Assembly (NCBI GenBank): GCA_026418055.1
Contig: JAOACB010000021.1
Coordinates: 1-39,348, forward strand
DNA length: 39,348 bases
Reading direction: 5' to 3'
Origin: Fimbriimonadales bacterium
GTDB taxonomy: Bacteria > Armatimonadota > Fimbriimonadia > Fimbriimonadales > Fimbriimonadaceae
The notes under the pieces were generated by a model. It saw only the letters and a program-made list of their open reading frames with translations, was not told where the DNA came from and did no database searches. The translations under genes were made by a program, and so were the position numbers. Below, in pieces: positions 25,243 through 32,537 of the stretch. The stretch's first letter is position 1, and every line of letters starts with the position of its first letter.

Positions 25243-28053
25243 ATGAGGATCGTCCTGCCCGTTGCCGGTCTGACAGTTCTCGCCGTTTTGCTCGCCGCGC
25301 TGGGAGCGAGGCAACCCGGGTACTCGGCCGTGGTGCTGCGAGACGGGAGCCTCGCGGTGCTGCGGGGCGAGGAGGGCCTTCTGAGCGTGGGCCTCATCGG
25401 CTGGGGGCCGAACTGGGCGTGGGCCGACTGGGAGGGTAAGGTCCGCCCCGAGGGCAGCTCTTCCGCCGTCTCGGCCGCGCTGCGGCTGGCGACCGCCGCC
25501 ACGCTGAAGATCGAGGCCTCATGGAGGCCGGTGGGCGCCGATCGTCTCGCGTTCGAGGGAACGCTGTGGACCGACCGCCCCACGGGCCTGACCATGGCGG
25601 GACTCGGCCTGACGCTCGTCCGAGGCCGCGGAAACGCCGCCTGGACCGTGCGGGTGCCCGGAGGAACCCCTCTGCCGTTCGGCCAGCGAACCGACTTCGG
25701 CACGGTGCGGGAGGTCGTTCTCGAGGGCGGCGGCTTGGCGGTTCCGTTGCGGTTCGACCCTCCCGTGCGCGTCGGCATGGACGGCAACCTGCGGATCGCC
25801 TTGGCGACGGACCGCCTGGAGGCCGGTCGGCCGGTCCGCTTCCGCATCGAGCTGGCCTTCCCGGAGGCTTGCAGGCTCTATCCCGACCCCGGGGCCGCTC
25901 CCGCTCGCACCCCCGAGCAGAGCGGATGGTTCCCGTTCCTGCCGCAAGCAGCCGGCTCCGGCACCGACGAGCTGTCGCTGTCGAACTGGCTGGCCGCCCC
26001 TGCGGGTTCCGAGGGGAGGGTCGTGGCGCGCGGGGATCGGCTGTTCGCAGGGGGTCGGCCGATCCGCCTCTGGGGAGTCAACGTGTGCTACTCCGACTGC
26101 GCCCCGCCCAAGGAGCTCGCGGATCGCCGCGCCGCGTTCTACGCTCGCAACGGCGTCAACGCCGTTCGGCTCCACAAGTTCGCCGACGGGCCCGGCTGGG
26201 CCGGTATCCAGGAACCCGGAAGCTTCGCCCGCTTCGACGCGGAGGCGCTTGACCGGTTCGACTACTTCGTGGCCGCGCTGAAGAAGCGCGGGATCTACGT
26301 GAAGCTGTCTCCAACGTTCGGCGTGCGACTCGGGCCGGACGACCGAGCCGCCGTGCCGTACCTCGAGGAGTTCGGCCCTGCGCCGAAGCCCGGCGAGCGC
26401 CTGGCCACCGGTCACGGCGCGATCTTCCTCAGCCGCGAGCTGCAGGACCTGCAGATCGCCCAGATGCGCCGCCTGCTGGCGCACCGCAATCCGTACACGG
26501 GCCTCACCTACGCCCAGGATCCGGCGGTCGCCCTGATCGAGCTGTTCAACGAGGACAGCGCGCTGTTCTACGGCACCATGGACCGCCTGCAGAAGGTGCC
26601 CACGCTGCGTCGGCGGGCTGCCGAGCGCTTCGCCGACTGGCTCGCGCGCCGCTACGGCACCAAGCAGGCTTGGCTGGACGCTTGGGGACGAGAGGCGCTC
26701 AACCGCTTCACCGCGGAAGGCTTCAACGACGAGAGCTGGGAGGCCAAGAGGATCCACCCTGCGGGCAACCCTTGGTTCTACGATCCGACGCAGATGGCCG
26801 CTTGGACGCCCGCCGTGCGGCGCCGACTGCACGACACGATGCTCTTCCTGTACGAGCTGCAGAACGAGTTCTACGACCGCTACAAGGCCGAGCTGCGGCG
26901 CGCGGGCTACTCCGGCGAGGTCATCGCGTCGAACTGGATCGCCGGGAGGGGCTTCAGCCACTTCTACAACCTGCACTCGGACGCCCGCATCGGAATCGTC
27001 GACCGCCACAACTACATGGGCGGCTCCGACGGCTCTTGGATCCTCGACGACAGCATGCTGGAGCGACCGGGCTCGGGGATGCTCAGCACGGGCTTGCACC
27101 AAGTGGCCGACCGGCCCTTCAGCCTGTCCGAGTGGATCCACGTGTGGCCCAACGAGCGAGGGGTCGAAGGCCCGACCCTGCACGCGGCCTACGGCATAGG
27201 CCTGCAAGGTTGGGACGCGTCGTTCCTGTTCCAGAACGGCGACACCGGCGGGTTCGCCGAGCGTTTGGGGCGCAGCCAGTGGGAGGCTACCGCGCCGCAG
27301 GTGATGGGGATTCTTCCCATCGTCTCCCGCATGGTGCATCGGGGAGACGTGCGCGAGGCGCCGATCGTGGCGGCGCGCAACGTGCACGTGCCCTCGCTGG
27401 TCGAGGGGAGGCTGGGCTTCGACGATCAGGGGGACGCTGCCGGCGACGTCAAGACGGCGGACAGCGGCACCGTGCCCGCCGAGTCGCTGGCGGTCGGACG
27501 GAGCGTGGTGCGCTTCACGCCGCGGCACCAGGAGACCCAGCCGTTCGACCCCTCGGCCCACAAGCGGGACGGAGCGGTGCGCTCGGTCACAGGACAGCTC
27601 GCGTGGCACCCTCGGGACGCCGAGACCCGCGGGTGGGCGCAGATCGACACCGAAGGCACGCAGGGCGTGGTGGGCTTCGCCGAGGGCCTCTCCTTCCTCC
27701 TTCGGGACTGCCGGATCGAGATGCGCTCGCCCTACGCGGCGGTTCTCGTGACCGCGAGCTCGCCGAACGGCAAGGTCGCGGACGATCGGAAGCTGCTGGT
27801 GGCGGCGATCGCCCGAGCGCGCAACGCCGGCGCCAAGGTCTTGGGCACGCTGCTGCTGGAGCCCGGCCAGGGTCCGGTGCTGATGGAGCCGGTGCGCGCC
27901 AGGCTGGAGCTGCGCCGACCCGGCCGACCGACCGTGCACGTGCTGGACGCCCTCGGCCGGCGCACCGGGCGCACTGTGCCCCCTAGCGGCGGCGGCTTCG
28001 AGATCGACACTGGGCGGGACCGGAGTTGCTACTATCTCATCGAATACCCTTGA
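25243..28053 (+). CDS. exported or membrane-anchored TIM-barrel glycoside hydrolase (GH5-like)
   Basis: 936 residues. The N-terminus (IVLPVAGLTVLAVLLAALGA) is a signal anchor or signal peptide. Residues 250-650 form a clan GH-A-like barrel: LWGVNVCYSDC, RNGVNAVRLHKFADG, the acid/base motif IELFNEDS (Asn436-Glu437) and the likely nucleophile SLSEWIHVWPNE (Glu630). The first ~240 residues look like a beta-sandwich, and the C-terminal 250 residues contain further beta strands. The substrate is probably a beta-glycan outside the cytoplasm, but not assignable. Its stop TGA overlaps the ATG of the acyltransferase gene, so the next two genes are likely coupled to it. Confidence 0.85.
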   Translation: MRIVLPVAGLTVLAVLLAALGARQPGYSAVVLRDGSLAVLRGEEGLLSVGLIGWGPNWAWADWEGKVRPEGSSSAVSAALRLATAATLKIEASWRPVGADRLAFEGTLWTDRPTGLTMAGLGLTLVRGRGNAAWTVRVPGGTPLPFGQRTDFGTVREVVLEGGGLAVPLRFDPPVRVGMDGNLRIALATDRLEAGRPVRFRIELAFPEACRLYPDPGAAPARTPEQSGWFPFLPQAAGSGTDELSLSNWLAAPAGSEGRVVARGDRLFAGGRPIRLWGVNVCYSDCAPPKELADRRAAFYARNGVNAVRLHKFADGPGWAGIQEPGSFARFDAEALDRFDYFVAALKKRGIYVKLSPTFGVRLGPDDRAAVPYLEEFGPAPKPGERLATGHGAIFLSRELQDLQIAQMRRLLAHRNPYTGLTYAQDPAVALIELFNEDSALFYGTMDRLQKVPTLRRRAAERFADWLARRYGTKQAWLDAWGREALNRFTAEGFNDESWEAKRIHPAGNPWFYDPTQMAAWTPAVRRRLHDTMLFLYELQNEFYDRYKAELRRAGYSGEVIASNWIAGRGFSHFYNLHSDARIGIVDRHNYMGGSDGSWILDDSMLERPGSGMLSTGLHQVADRPFSLSEWIHVWPNERGVEGPTLHAAYGIGLQGWDASFLFQNGDTGGFAERLGRSQWEATAPQVMGILPIVSRMVHRGDVREAPIVAARNVHVPSLVEGRLGFDDQGDAAGDVKTADSGTVPAESLAVGRSVVRFTPRHQETQPFDPSAHKRDGAVRSVTGQLAWHPRDAETRGWAQIDTEGTQGVVGFAEGLSFLLRDCRIEMRSPYAAVLVTASSPNGKVADDRKLLVAAIARARNAGAKVLGTLLLEPGQGPVLMEPVRARLELRRPGRPTVHVLDALGRRTGRTVPPSGGGFEIDTGRDRSCYYLIEYP

Positions 28054-28718
28054 TGGTGTTGAGCGAGGGGTGTCCGAGACAGACGCATGGTCCGCTGGGG
28101 CCGCTCGTGGAGCGGTTGCTCCGATCCGGGGTCCGCAGGGGCTTCCACACCGTCTGGTGGCGGCCGCCCGAGGCGCCGCTGCCCCGGCCTTGCGTGCTGG
28201 TCGCCAACCACCACGGCTGGTTCGACGGACACCTGCTGTTCCTCGCGGTGCGCGCGATGGGGGTGCCGACGGTGCTTTGGGTGGAGCGGCTGGAGGAGTT
28301 TCCCTTCTTCGCGGCGGTGGGAGCGATGCCTTTCCCCAAAGGGGATCCGGCGCGGAGGGCCGCGACGATCCGGCGCACGGTGCGCTGGATGCGGCAGGGG
28401 GGCTGCTTGGCGCTGTTTCCCGAGGGAGAGTTGCACCGGCCTCCGGACCTGCTGCCGATGGGCAGGTCGATCGGGCTGCTGCAGAGGCTGGTGCCCCAGG
28501 CGCCGTTGGTGCCGGTGGCGATCCGCTACGAGATGTCGATCCACCAGCGGCCCGAGGCGTGGCTGTCGTTCGGCGGGCCGGAGGAACCCTGTCGGCTTGC
28601 GGCCACCCTCGGACGCCTGCTCTCCGAACGGGACGCCGATGGGTTCGAAGTCCTAGCCCGAGGGACCCCCGACGACGACGAGAAGTGGCGGTGGCCGTTC
28701 CTCGGACCGAGGGGATGA
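28053..28718 (+). CDS. PlsC-like acyltransferase
   Basis: 221 residues. The lysophosphatidic-acid acyltransferase signature is present: NHHGWFD (His53-x4-Asp58) and FPEG (122-125), with IGLLQRLVPQAPLVPVAIRYE downstream. It would transfer acyl groups from acyl-CoA or ACP to a hydroxyl acceptor at the membrane. Start: the ATG at 28053 shares bases with the TGA of the glycoside hydrolase gene (TGATG), and the stop overlaps the ATG of the phytoene synthase gene (ATGA). This tight coupling with a terpene synthase suggests that the acceptor could be a terpenoid or carotenoid glycoside, as in acylated carotenoids, but ordinary phospholipid synthesis remains possible. Confidence 0.86.
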   Translation: MVLSEGCPRQTHGPLGPLVERLLRSGVRRGFHTVWWRPPEAPLPRPCVLVANHHGWFDGHLLFLAVRAMGVPTVLWVERLEEFPFFAAVGAMPFPKGDPARRAATIRRTVRWMRQGGCLALFPEGELHRPPDLLPMGRSIGLLQRLVPQAPLVPVAIRYEMSIHQRPEAWLSFGGPEEPCRLAATLGRLLSERDADGFEVLARGTPDDDEKWRWPFLGPRG

Positions 28719-29593
28719 GCATGGCGAACGCGGAGTGGAGGGCCAGCCGCGAGGATTACGAGGTGTGCCGACGCCTGCACGCGCGGCACGGGTCGACCTA
28801 CTATCTGTCGTCCCGCCTGTTCCCGCCGCGGCGTCGGCGCCAGGTGGACGCGGTGTACGGGTTCGTGCGAGTGCCGGACGAGATCGTGGACAACGCGGCA
28901 GGAGCCACCAAGGAGGAGTGCGCGCGCAAGCTGGACGCCTACAGGCGCGAGCTCCTGGCGGGTTTGGAGGGGCAACGGCCGTTGCACCCGGTGCTGCGGG
29001 CTTTCTGCGAGACGGCGCGGCAGATCGCCATCCCGCCGGAGGAGCCCCAGATCTTTCTGGACGCGATGGAGCGCGATCTGGTGCAGTGCACCTACGCCAC
29101 CTACGACGACCTGCGCGGCTACATGAGGGGCAGCGCTGTGGCCGTGGCTCTGATGATGTTCCCGATCCTCGGGATCCCGATGCGCGAGGGATTTCGCGAG
29201 GGCGCGGCTTCTCTCGCCGAGGCCATGCAGATGACGAACTTCCTGCGGGACGTGGGAGAGGACCTCGACCGGGGCCGCGTCTACCTGCCGCTCGAGGACC
29301 TCGAACGCTTCGGGCTCACCCTGGACGACCTTCGGGCGAGGCGCTTGGACGAGCGCTTCGTCGGGCTGATGCGCTTCGAGATCGCCCGAACGCGCGAGCT
29401 GTATGCGGCGAGCGACCCGCACATCGCGCGGTTGCCCTCGTTCGGCCGCAAGCCCGTTCGGCTGGCCCGGGAGCTGTACAGCCGCATCCTGAACCGGATC
29501 GAGGATCGCGGTTACGACGTGTTCGGAGGACGGGCTCGCACCGGGCGGCTCGAAAGGGCTTGGACCGCTCTGCGCGTGGCGGTCGCGGGCTAG
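28715..29593 (+). CDS. crtB: phytoene/squalene synthase family protein
   Basis: 292 residues, typical length. The two Asp-rich motifs are DEIVD (55-59) and DVGED (179-183), in VRVPDEIVDNAAG and NFLRDVGEDLDRGRVYLP. The second motif with the preceding MQMTN favours a CrtB-like phytoene synthase, but HpnC/HpnD-type enzymes of squalene synthesis look similar. It condenses two prenyl diphosphates head to head. The ATG at 28715 overlaps the acyltransferase stop by 4 bases (ATGA). The gene ends 1 nt from the selD stop on the other strand. No desaturase or cyclase is in the window. Confidence 0.88.
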   Translation: MSMANAEWRASREDYEVCRRLHARHGSTYYLSSRLFPPRRRRQVDAVYGFVRVPDEIVDNAAGATKEECARKLDAYRRELLAGLEGQRPLHPVLRAFCETARQIAIPPEEPQIFLDAMERDLVQCTYATYDDLRGYMRGSAVAVALMMFPILGIPMREGFREGAASLAEAMQMTNFLRDVGEDLDRGRVYLPLEDLERFGLTLDDLRARRLDERFVGLMRFEIARTRELYAASDPHIARLPSFGRKPVRLARELYSRILNRIEDRGYDVFGGRARTGRLERAWTALRVAVAG

Positions 29594-29594
29594 C

Positions 29595-30584
29595 TCAGTC
29601 CAGGAGGATCGAGGGTTCGCCCTCGAGCACCCGACCGATCTCGGCGTATCCCTCGAGGGGTTGCTTGCTGAACAGCGCCAGCCCACCGCTGGTCTGGGGG
29701 TCCAGGGCGAGCGCCTTGCGCCAACCCGCCACCGAGGGACCGACGATCAGGCGGTCGCCCAGGTGCAGCTCGTTGGCTGCCGCTCCTCCGGTGGTGTTGC
29801 CCTCGGCGACCATCCTCTCCACCCCCGGCAGCACGGGAAGGGCCTCGGTGCGGATCTCGATGGCCACGCCGCTGGCTCGGGCCACGTGGAACAGGTGGCC
29901 GCACAAGCCGAAGCCGGTCACGTCGGTGGCGCACCGCACGCCGTGCCGCAGTCCCGCCTCGCAGGCGTCGCGGTTCAGCGCCGCCATCCAACGCACGGCC
30001 TCCTCCAGCTCCTCCCGCGAGCAGGAGTCGAACTTCGCCGCGGTCGACACGATGCCGCTGCCCAGCGGCTTGGTCAGGTAGATGCGGTCGCCCGGCTCGG
30101 CCGCGGTGTTGACGAACATCCTGCGCGGGTCGACCTCTCCCGTCACCGCCATGCCGAACTTCGGCTCCTTGTCCTCGACGCTGTGCCCTCCGACCACCAC
30201 GGCGCCGGCCTCCGTCGCCTTGTCGTAGGCTCCCTGCAGAACGGCGGCCCAGACCTCCGCCGGGGCCGCCGCGGGAGAGAAGCACGCGATGTTCAATACG
30301 GTGAGGGGACGGCCGCCCATGGCGTACACGTCGCTCAGCGCGTTGGCGGCCGCGATCGCGCCGTAGGCGTAAGGGTCGTCGACGATCGGCGTGAAGAAGT
30401 CCACCGTCTGAACCAAGGCTCGATCCTCGGACAGCCGGAACACCCCCGCGTCGTCGCTGGTTTCGAATCCGACGAGCAGGTTGGGGTTGGTCGACCGAGG
30501 AAGCCGGCGGAGCACCTCCGCCAGTTGGGTTGGCCCCAGCTTCGACGCTCAACCGGCGCAGGAGACGAGCTGCGTGAGGCGCAT
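29595..30584 (-). CDS. selD: selenophosphate synthetase with in-frame TGA (selenocysteine)
   Basis: 329 residues counting selenocysteine. The gene begins at the ATG at 30584 (MRLTQLVSCAG), then reads TGA at 30549-30551, then ASKLGPTQLAEVL, exactly where SelD carries its catalytic Cys or Sec in the family motif (CAG[C/U]xSKLGP). The body has the family features: DDAGVFRL, the ATP/metal motif TVDFFTPIVDDPYAYGAIAAANALSDVYAMGG, VVGGHSVED and LDPQTSGGLA. The enzyme makes selenophosphate from selenide and ATP for Sec-tRNA synthesis or selenouridine. An annotation that treats TGA as stop would start at GTG 30515 and lose the active site. A TAGAAT lies eight bases before the ATG, and its TAG is the stop codon of the upstream PIG-L gene. 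Confidence 0.92.
30504..30524 (-). promoter_or_regulatory. bSECIS-type hairpin in selD
   Basis: On the minus strand CTGGCGGAG-GTG-CTCCGCCGG forms a 9-bp stem (one G-U) with a GTG loop. The loop begins 33 nt after the TGA, inside the 16-37 nt range described for bacterial SECIS elements, and its first base is the expected G. It would direct SelB to recode the UGA. Confidence 0.7.
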
Positions 30585-30592
30585 CGGCACCG

Positions 30593-30598
30593 ATTCTA
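30593..30598 (-). promoter_or_regulatory. -10 element of selD, overlapping the upstream stop codon
   Basis: TAGAAT on the minus strand, eight bases before the ATG of selD, no SD. The TAG is also the stop of the PIG-L gene, so the promoter is embedded at the junction. Confidence 0.5.
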
Positions 30599-31423
30599 CC
30601 GTCCGTCCCCCACGCGGATGGCGCGGAACGGTTCCAGGCGCCTCCCCTCCAGTCCCATCCGCCGCGCCGCCTCGCGGGCTCGACCGTCGACCATCGACTG
30701 GATGTAGGCCAAGCGGGGCCCCGAAAACTGACTGGCGTGCACACCCAGCAGCCGCTGGGCTTCGTCCCAAACGTCGGAGGCGTCGAGGCCGGTGTTCGCG
30801 GCGCGCGTGGAGAAGAGCAGCATCCAGCCTTCGAAACCGGACCGCCGAGCGGCCTCGACGGCCGCGAGGCCCGCGTGCCTGTGGTCCCGGTGGTACACGC
30901 GCCGCACGTGCTCGGGATCGAACGTGAGCAGGATCTCCGGTTGGAACTCCCGGAACTCCGGCTCCAGCTTGCGGATCGCCTCCTCCGAGGGCTGGAGCCT
31001 GCCGTCCGGCAAACCCAGGAACCGCACCGACCGGATGCCGAACAGCTGGGCCGCGCGCAACTGCTCCTGGCGCCGGATCCGGGCGGTCGCACGGGCATCG
31101 TGCAACGGGTAGTAGCCCTTGTCGCCGTCCGTCATCACCACCAGGCGGACCTCGGCGCCGGTTTCCCGCAACCGAAGCAGCGTACCCCCCACGTAGAACG
31201 CCTCGTCGTCCGGGTGCGCCGTCACCAGCAGCACCCGCGCGCCGGGACGCAGCAGGCCCGTGTCCCCTAGGCGGACGGGCGGTAGGTTCGGCGGCTCGCC
31301 GGGAAAGAGCTCGATGCGCTGCGGCTGCCAGAGGTACACGCCGAGCAACCCCAGGCCGGTCAGCCCGATGACGGAACCGACGGCCCTTGCGAATCCCCTC
31401 CAGCCTCTTGGTCTGCGCCGCAT
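30596..31423 (-). CDS. membrane-anchored PIG-L/LmbE-family deacetylase
   Basis: 275 residues. A membrane helix at residues ~12-32 (ARAVGSVIGLTGLGLLGVYLW) precedes the PIG-L domain, so the catalytic part is probably outside the cytoplasm. The zinc motif is TAHPDDEAFYVGGTLLRL, with TFDPEHVRRVYHRDHRHAG supplying the further His ligands. The family removes acetyl groups from N-acetylglucosamine-type sugars. The ATG at 31423 is preceded by AAGAGGA; a frame extension to 31480 exists (MGADYSEL) but has no signal of its own. It lies directly upstream of selD. Confidence 0.87.
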   Translation of the reverse strand: MRRRPRGWRGFARAVGSVIGLTGLGLLGVYLWQPQRIELFPGEPPNLPPVRLGDTGLLRPGARVLLVTAHPDDEAFYVGGTLLRLRETGAEVRLVVMTDGDKGYYPLHDARATARIRRQEQLRAAQLFGIRSVRFLGLPDGRLQPSEEAIRKLEPEFREFQPEILLTFDPEHVRRVYHRDHRHAGLAAVEAARRSGFEGWMLLFSTRAANTGLDASDVWDEAQRLLGVHASQFSGPRLAYIQSMVDGRAREAARRMGLEGRRLEPFRAIRVGDGR

Positions 31424-31466
31424 CCGATCCTCTTCTTCTACGCGTCCGCCGCCGCCGAGTTCGGAG

Positions 31467-31472
31467 TAATCT
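31467..31472 (+). promoter_or_regulatory. -10 element of URO-D-like gene, leaderless type
   Basis: TAATCT ends six bases before the ATG at 31479 with no SD between. It lies in the 55-nt divergent gap to the PIG-L gene. Confidence 0.45.
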
Positions 31473-31478
31473 GCGCCC

Positions 31479-32537
31479 ATGCCCTTCGCCGAGGGCTGGA
31501 TGGCCCTCCACCTGGAAGCGCCCCGGCGGGTCCCGCGGACGGAGTACTCCGCCGAGTTCCACTGGGATCTGGTCCGAACCGTGACCGGCTTGGAGGTCGG
31601 TCCCGAGAGCGGCCCGGAACGAAGGGCGGAGGCCGCGAGGGCGTTCCAGAAGGCGTGGAGCTACGACCTCGCTTGGTCGACCTTGATCGGAGGCGAGGAG
31701 CTGGGCCCTTGGAGGACCCGGATGGGTCACGCGCGCTACATGGCCGCCGGGGAGGATTGGGATCCCGTGCTGTCGAGCCCGTTCCGCTCCGCCGAGGAGG
31801 TGCTCGCCTTCGATCCTCTCGAACGGCTGCCCCATCCGGACAGGGCCGTCCTTCGGCGCAGGTTCGAGGAGCATTACCGGGCCAACGTGGCTTTCCACGA
31901 CGACCTGGTGAACATGACCGGCGTGTACATCACCTGCGTCTCGGGCCTGATCGAGCTGTTCGGTTGGGAGCTGCTGCTCACGGCCCTGGGGACCGACCCC
32001 GCCCGCATGGGGGAGCTGACCGACCGCTACTGCCGTTGGATCGGCGCGTACTTCGAGGCCCTGGCGGAGGCGGACGTGCCTGTGGCGATGGTGCACGACG
32101 ACATCGTTTGGAGCTCGGGGCCCATCTTCCACCCCGATTGGTACCGCGCGCACGTGTTTGCGAACTACCGATGGATGTGGGAGCCTGTGCTCGCCTCGGG
32201 GAAGAAGCTGCTCTTCACCTCGGACGGCGACTACACGATGTTTCTACAGGACGTGGCCGACTGCGGCGCCCACGGCTTCGTGCTGGAGCCTCTGACGAGC
32301 CTCGAGCTCGCGGCGGAGCGTTACGGCCGCACGCACGTGCTGATCGGGAACGCCGACACCCGCATCCTGCTGGCGGGGCCGGAGTCCCGGATCCGAGCGG
32401 AGGTGGAGCGCTGCATGGCGGCGGGCAAGGCCTGCCCCGGCTACTTTCTGGCGGTGGGCAACCACATCCCGCCGAACACGCCGGTGGAGCACGCGCTGGC
32501 CTACGAGCGCGCCTACCGCGAGCTTTGCCGGCGCTGA
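31479..32537 (+). CDS. uroporphyrinogen-decarboxylase-like (URO-D/MtaA family) protein
   Basis: 352 residues. The fold is a URO-D-like TIM barrel: PVAMVHDDIVWSSGPIFHP, KLLFTSDGDYTMFLQDVADCGAHGFVLEP and, near the C-terminus, AVGNHIPPNTPVEHALAYERAY, the family's closing motif. Family members include HemE and the methylcobamide:coenzyme M methyltransferases (MtaA type). The weak HemE signature and the lone position point to the methyltransferase-like branch common in Armatimonadota, but substrate is unknown. No corrinoid protein is adjacent. The stop codon TGA directly adjoins the stop of the response regulator gene on the other strand (TGATCA). Confidence 0.82.
   Translation: MPFAEGWMALHLEAPRRVPRTEYSAEFHWDLVRTVTGLEVGPESGPERRAEAARAFQKAWSYDLAWSTLIGGEELGPWRTRMGHARYMAAGEDWDPVLSSPFRSAEEVLAFDPLERLPHPDRAVLRRRFEEHYRANVAFHDDLVNMTGVYITCVSGLIELFGWELLLTALGTDPARMGELTDRYCRWIGAYFEALAEADVPVAMVHDDIVWSSGPIFHPDWYRAHVFANYRWMWEPVLASGKKLLFTSDGDYTMFLQDVADCGAHGFVLEPLTSLELAAERYGRTHVLIGNADTRILLAGPESRIRAEVERCMAAGKACPGYFLAVGNHIPPNTPVEHALAYERAYRELCRR

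Follow-up and report, generated by a model that had tools for sequence, protein, structure and literature searches.

An in-frame UGA at the catalytic position of selD in an uncultured Fimbriimonadaceae-like bacterium

The selenophosphate synthetase (SelD) of Aquifex aeolicus is naturally a selenoprotein, whereas that of Escherichia coli has Cys, not Sec, and lacks an in-frame UGA. Among bacterial selenoprotein families, Zhang et al. (2006, PMC1794560) ranked SelD and FdhA as the two most abundant, and in environmental samples SelW-like proteins and SelD were the most abundant families (PMC9312934). Published rules for the bacterial SECIS hairpin specify a loop of 3–9 nt with G in the first two positions, a stem of 4–16 bp, a location 16–37 nt after the UGA and a folding energy of −7.5 kcal/mol or lower (PMC13188914). 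Among the open-access papers searched, none dealt with Armatimonadetes and selenocysteine or with Fimbriimonas and a selenoprotein.

The window (the whole stretch of DNA that was analysed, 39,348 nucleotides) belongs to a draft genome of 2.89 Mb in 135 contigs, 96.8% complete. It carries the only selD copy of that genome, which is laid out as follows.

29595..30584, minus strand: selD, selenophosphate synthetase (selenide, water dikinase), 329 codons including the predicted Sec12, from the ATG at 30584 to the TGA stop at 29597-29595.
30549..30551, minus strand: in-frame TGA, codon 12, predicted Sec12 (equivalent to Cys17 of E. coli SelD).
30504..30524, minus strand: predicted SECIS hairpin with a 9-bp stem, CTGGCGGAG/CTCCGCCGG (arms 30524-30516 and 30512-30504), and the apical loop GTG at 30515-30513.
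29595..30515, minus strand: N-truncated 306-aa ORF starting at GTG, the expected output of standard gene calling, without the active-site Sec and Lys15.

The frame translates as MRLTQLVSCAG-(TGA)-ASKLGPTQLAEVLRRLP... and meets no further stop until the TGA at 29597-29595. The read-through product matches the TIGR00476 selD profile at 361.9 bits (cut-off 125), residues 2–303 aligning with profile positions 1–303 of 311, and has AIRS and AIRS_C domains, with the catalytic Cys/Sec position at residue 12 and the Lys three residues downstream at K15. The initial annotation had placed the TGA at the catalytic Cys/Sec position and had taken the protein 3′ of it to be complete; alignment with Cys17 of E. 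coli SelD (PDB 3u0o) bears out the former, and the open frame and full-length profile match the latter. It had also expected automatic annotation to return a truncated protein from GTG 30515 with the active site lost, as is indeed the case, the 306-aa ORF being the sole table-11 ORF in the frame. The GTG start of this ORF coincides with the apical loop of the SECIS. Reading the TGA as Sec corrects an annotation that would drop the SelD active site.

Relatives were surveyed in 61 whole genomes of the same genus, family and order. True SelD is present in 34, and in 31 of these 34 orthologues the frame retains exactly one internal TGA, which confirms the minus-strand frame with its in-frame TGA as a genuine feature, far beyond chance. 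The three exceptions lie in genomes G003 (locus L123), G007 (G007:C4:459000-459941) and G040 (locus L121); the two that were read, L123 and L121, both have Cys at this site, encoded by TGT and TGC, respectively. Across 80 loci from many phyla the site holds a TGA or a Cys codon in every case, with the TGA also aligned in Acidobacteria, Clostridia, Myxococcota and others, and Cys in many Paenibacillaceae. The closest named record, from a Fimbriimonadaceae metagenome-assembled genome with 74% identity, has the TGA too.

The hairpin 3′ of the TGA satisfies every published bacterial SECIS rule, with its GUG loop, 9-bp stem, spacing of 33 nt and energy of −15.0 kcal/mol. The G-first loop and the fit to SECIS rules stand as initially annotated; the 33-nt distance from the TGA is that of the apical loop, not of the stem as first stated. 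The region folds better than most of its shuffles (z = −2.4). Across 31 relatives, four of six stem pairs show changes on both sides (compensatory), 91.4% of cells are paired and both-side changes number 20, against 5.6 ± 1.9 in shuffles, although the hairpin lies inside coding sequence and part of its conservation reflects protein constraint. The covariation score was reached by none of 500 shuffles and was lost when the partner was slid by 1–3 columns. Direct sequence inspection showed a stem register shifted by one base with the same GGU loop in three relatives (L018:5034-5096, L020:5034-5096 and L119:1531-1593; positions 28–46 from the TGA), and in two more (L021 and L022) the hairpins are weak under a simple scan. 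Neither of the Cys-SelD genes examined (L121 and L123) has the hairpin, their best energies being 0.0 and −0.2 kcal/mol. The selD SECIS is a clean example of a hairpin kept with UGA and lost with Cys. When the source genome was searched with a covariance model built on the SelD SECIS (R1), SelD was the only convincing match; the other 13 matches were rejected for want of a convincing in-frame UGA.

The initial annotation had predicted selA, selB and selC at other sites of the genome and regarded their absence as fatal to its reading; on searching the source genome all three were found. selA is present in one copy (443.9 bits, cut-off 267.9), selB has one match over its cut-off (331.1 bits against 242.25), and the tRNA-Sec scores 73.9 bits with anticodon TCA (UCA). 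Over the 61 genomes, SelA above its cut-off tracks true SelD exactly, with both in 34 and neither in 27. These findings bear on the proposal that UGA is read here as an ordinary amino acid, by code reassignment or suppression, for which there is a precedent in the non-Sec readthrough of SPS genes proposed in Hymenoptera (PMC4561486), as for insect SPS1-UGA. We regard this as highly improbable: the complete Sec machinery and its exact co-occurrence with SelD speak against it, as do the SECIS with G/GU in its loop and the Cys at the TGA site in both TGA-less copies examined, and UGA is not reassigned, because TGA is the stop codon of selD and of neighbouring genes.

Conservation of the gene as a whole points the same way as that of its TGA. 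Among relatives selD is conserved on either side of the TGA, and comparison with the congener G002 gives 92 synonymous and 44 nonsynonymous codon differences, a pattern indicating that the gene is under purifying selection and not decaying. A real stop or sequencing error in a decaying or truncated selD would be in keeping with the N-truncated 306-aa ORF that standard gene calling yields, but this reading, the least probable of all, is already refuted by sequence conservation, because 31 of the 34 relatives, as well as several other phyla, have the same TGA independently, MRLTQLVSCAG is conserved before it though useful only under readthrough, synonymous changes exceed nonsynonymous ones, the genome has no replacement SelD, and a decaying copy would not hold frame and hairpin across genera. 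The initial annotation had itself named a second SelD with Cys, together with decay of the window copy, as the outcome that would overturn it; there is one SelD, and its substitutions argue for selection.

We therefore consider the gene, with a probability of about 97%, to encode an ordinary selenophosphate synthetase which is a selenoprotein in its own right, the UGA at codon 12 being read as Sec by means of SelA, SelB, tRNA-Sec and SECIS. It combines the marks of a bacterial selenoprotein: a UGA at the Cys position of its homologues, a hairpin within the SECIS rules, and selA, selB and tRNA-Sec in the same genome. By analogy with the known family, SelD would convert selenide and ATP to selenophosphate, and SelA would draw on this to make Sec-tRNA(Sec) from Ser-tRNA(Sec); SelB, binding the SECIS just 3′ of the UGA, would bring the charged tRNA to the ribosome, so that codon 12 would specify Sec in the catalytic site. 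The making of more SelD would then need SelD's own product, as would that of one or more further selenoproteins, among them a SelW-like CxxU protein encoded outside the window.

L136:1480-1740 (G000:C57:126012-126245), minus strand, on another contig: SelW-like CxxU protein (FCMEU).

This protein, MVVEIRFCMEUNYAPRAASLAEQLF..., carries a single TGA, which falls on the CxxU position; 22 nt past it lies the hairpin CCGCCA-GTT-TGGCGG. Members of the SelWTH family were found in 18 of the 61 genomes, every one with a single TGA; 17 of these genomes have SelA and SelD, the exception (G054) being only 73% complete. The SelW-like protein is thus the predicted second selenoprotein of the source genome, and SelD is not its only one. 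Neither formate dehydrogenase FdhA (TIGR01591) nor the tRNA selenouridine synthase YbbB/MnmH was found in the source genome, two TIGR01591 matches having been rejected as belonging to NuoG, and an AhpC/TSA scan (PF00578) gave 13 matches, none with an internal TGA. The in-frame TGAs that occur close to selA, selB and the tRNA-Sec gene of the source genome were likewise rejected as selenoprotein sites, being ordinary gene ends. Following selB on the same strand (L129:2210-9901 (+), G000:C63) are genes for TusA, FlpD (MvhD-like), a FAD/FeS protein resembling HdrA and a FeS membrane protein resembling HdrC. Some organisms have selenoprotein forms of FlpD and HdrA, but these domains showed no internal in-frame TGA in the source genome.

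Genomes G003, G007 and G040 keep SelA with a TGA-less SelD and no SelW-like protein was detected in them, so they probably hold selenoproteins other than these two; their selA neighbourhoods contain no clear selenoprotein. The selenoproteome search covered chosen families and has therefore probably overlooked further selenoproteins, especially in these SelA-bearing genomes. A tentative and on balance doubtful extension would be that the lineage keeps the Sec machinery for a tiny selenoproteome of SelD and the SelW-like protein, formate dehydrogenase and selenouridine synthase both being absent, and that the relatives with TGA-less SelD keep SelA for other selenoproteins.

The window also holds the following features.

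30596..31480, minus strand: PIG-L/BshB-like deacetylase gene, upstream of selD, ending 11 nt before its ATG.
28070-29593, plus strand: convergent gene; its end and the selD stop are 1 nt apart.
25243-28053, plus strand: ORF of 936 codons whose codon usage is coding-like, unmatched in Pfam and NCBIfam at E 0.001.

The deacetylase gene is possibly co-transcribed with selD, given the shared strand and the 11-nt gap; no promoter- or terminator-like sites were found around selD by simple consensus. The second half of the convergent gene matches presqualene diphosphate synthase HpnD/phytoene synthase at 201 bits, under the curated cut-off, so the gene probably begins in reality near 28.7 kb.

With this locus, the selenocysteine trait is recorded for an uncultured, Fimbriimonadaceae-like lineage of the Armatimonadota. 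The SelW-like protein resembles the SelW-like CxxU selenoproteins (TIGR02174) in its FCMEU motif and in the putative SECIS after its UGA. Against E. coli SelD, the window SelD aligns over residues 1–306 (E = 2.7e-63), with Sec12 corresponding to Cys17 and Lys15 to Lys20, and has Ser14 where the E. coli protein has a second Cys (Cys19). With bacterial Sec-containing SelD (TIGR00476; for example that of Aquifex aeolicus, PDB 2yye/2zod) it shares the full-length family match, the UGA at the catalytic position, the Sec/Cys and Lys three residues apart and the SECIS immediately 3′; there is no substantive difference, the hairpin sequence being its own, as is usual for bacterial SECIS. As Sec-containing SelD and SelW-like proteins are among the commonest bacterial selenoproteins (PMC1794560, PMC9312934), the window selD is of a known kind, a textbook selenoprotein type of ordinary function that fits the published picture.
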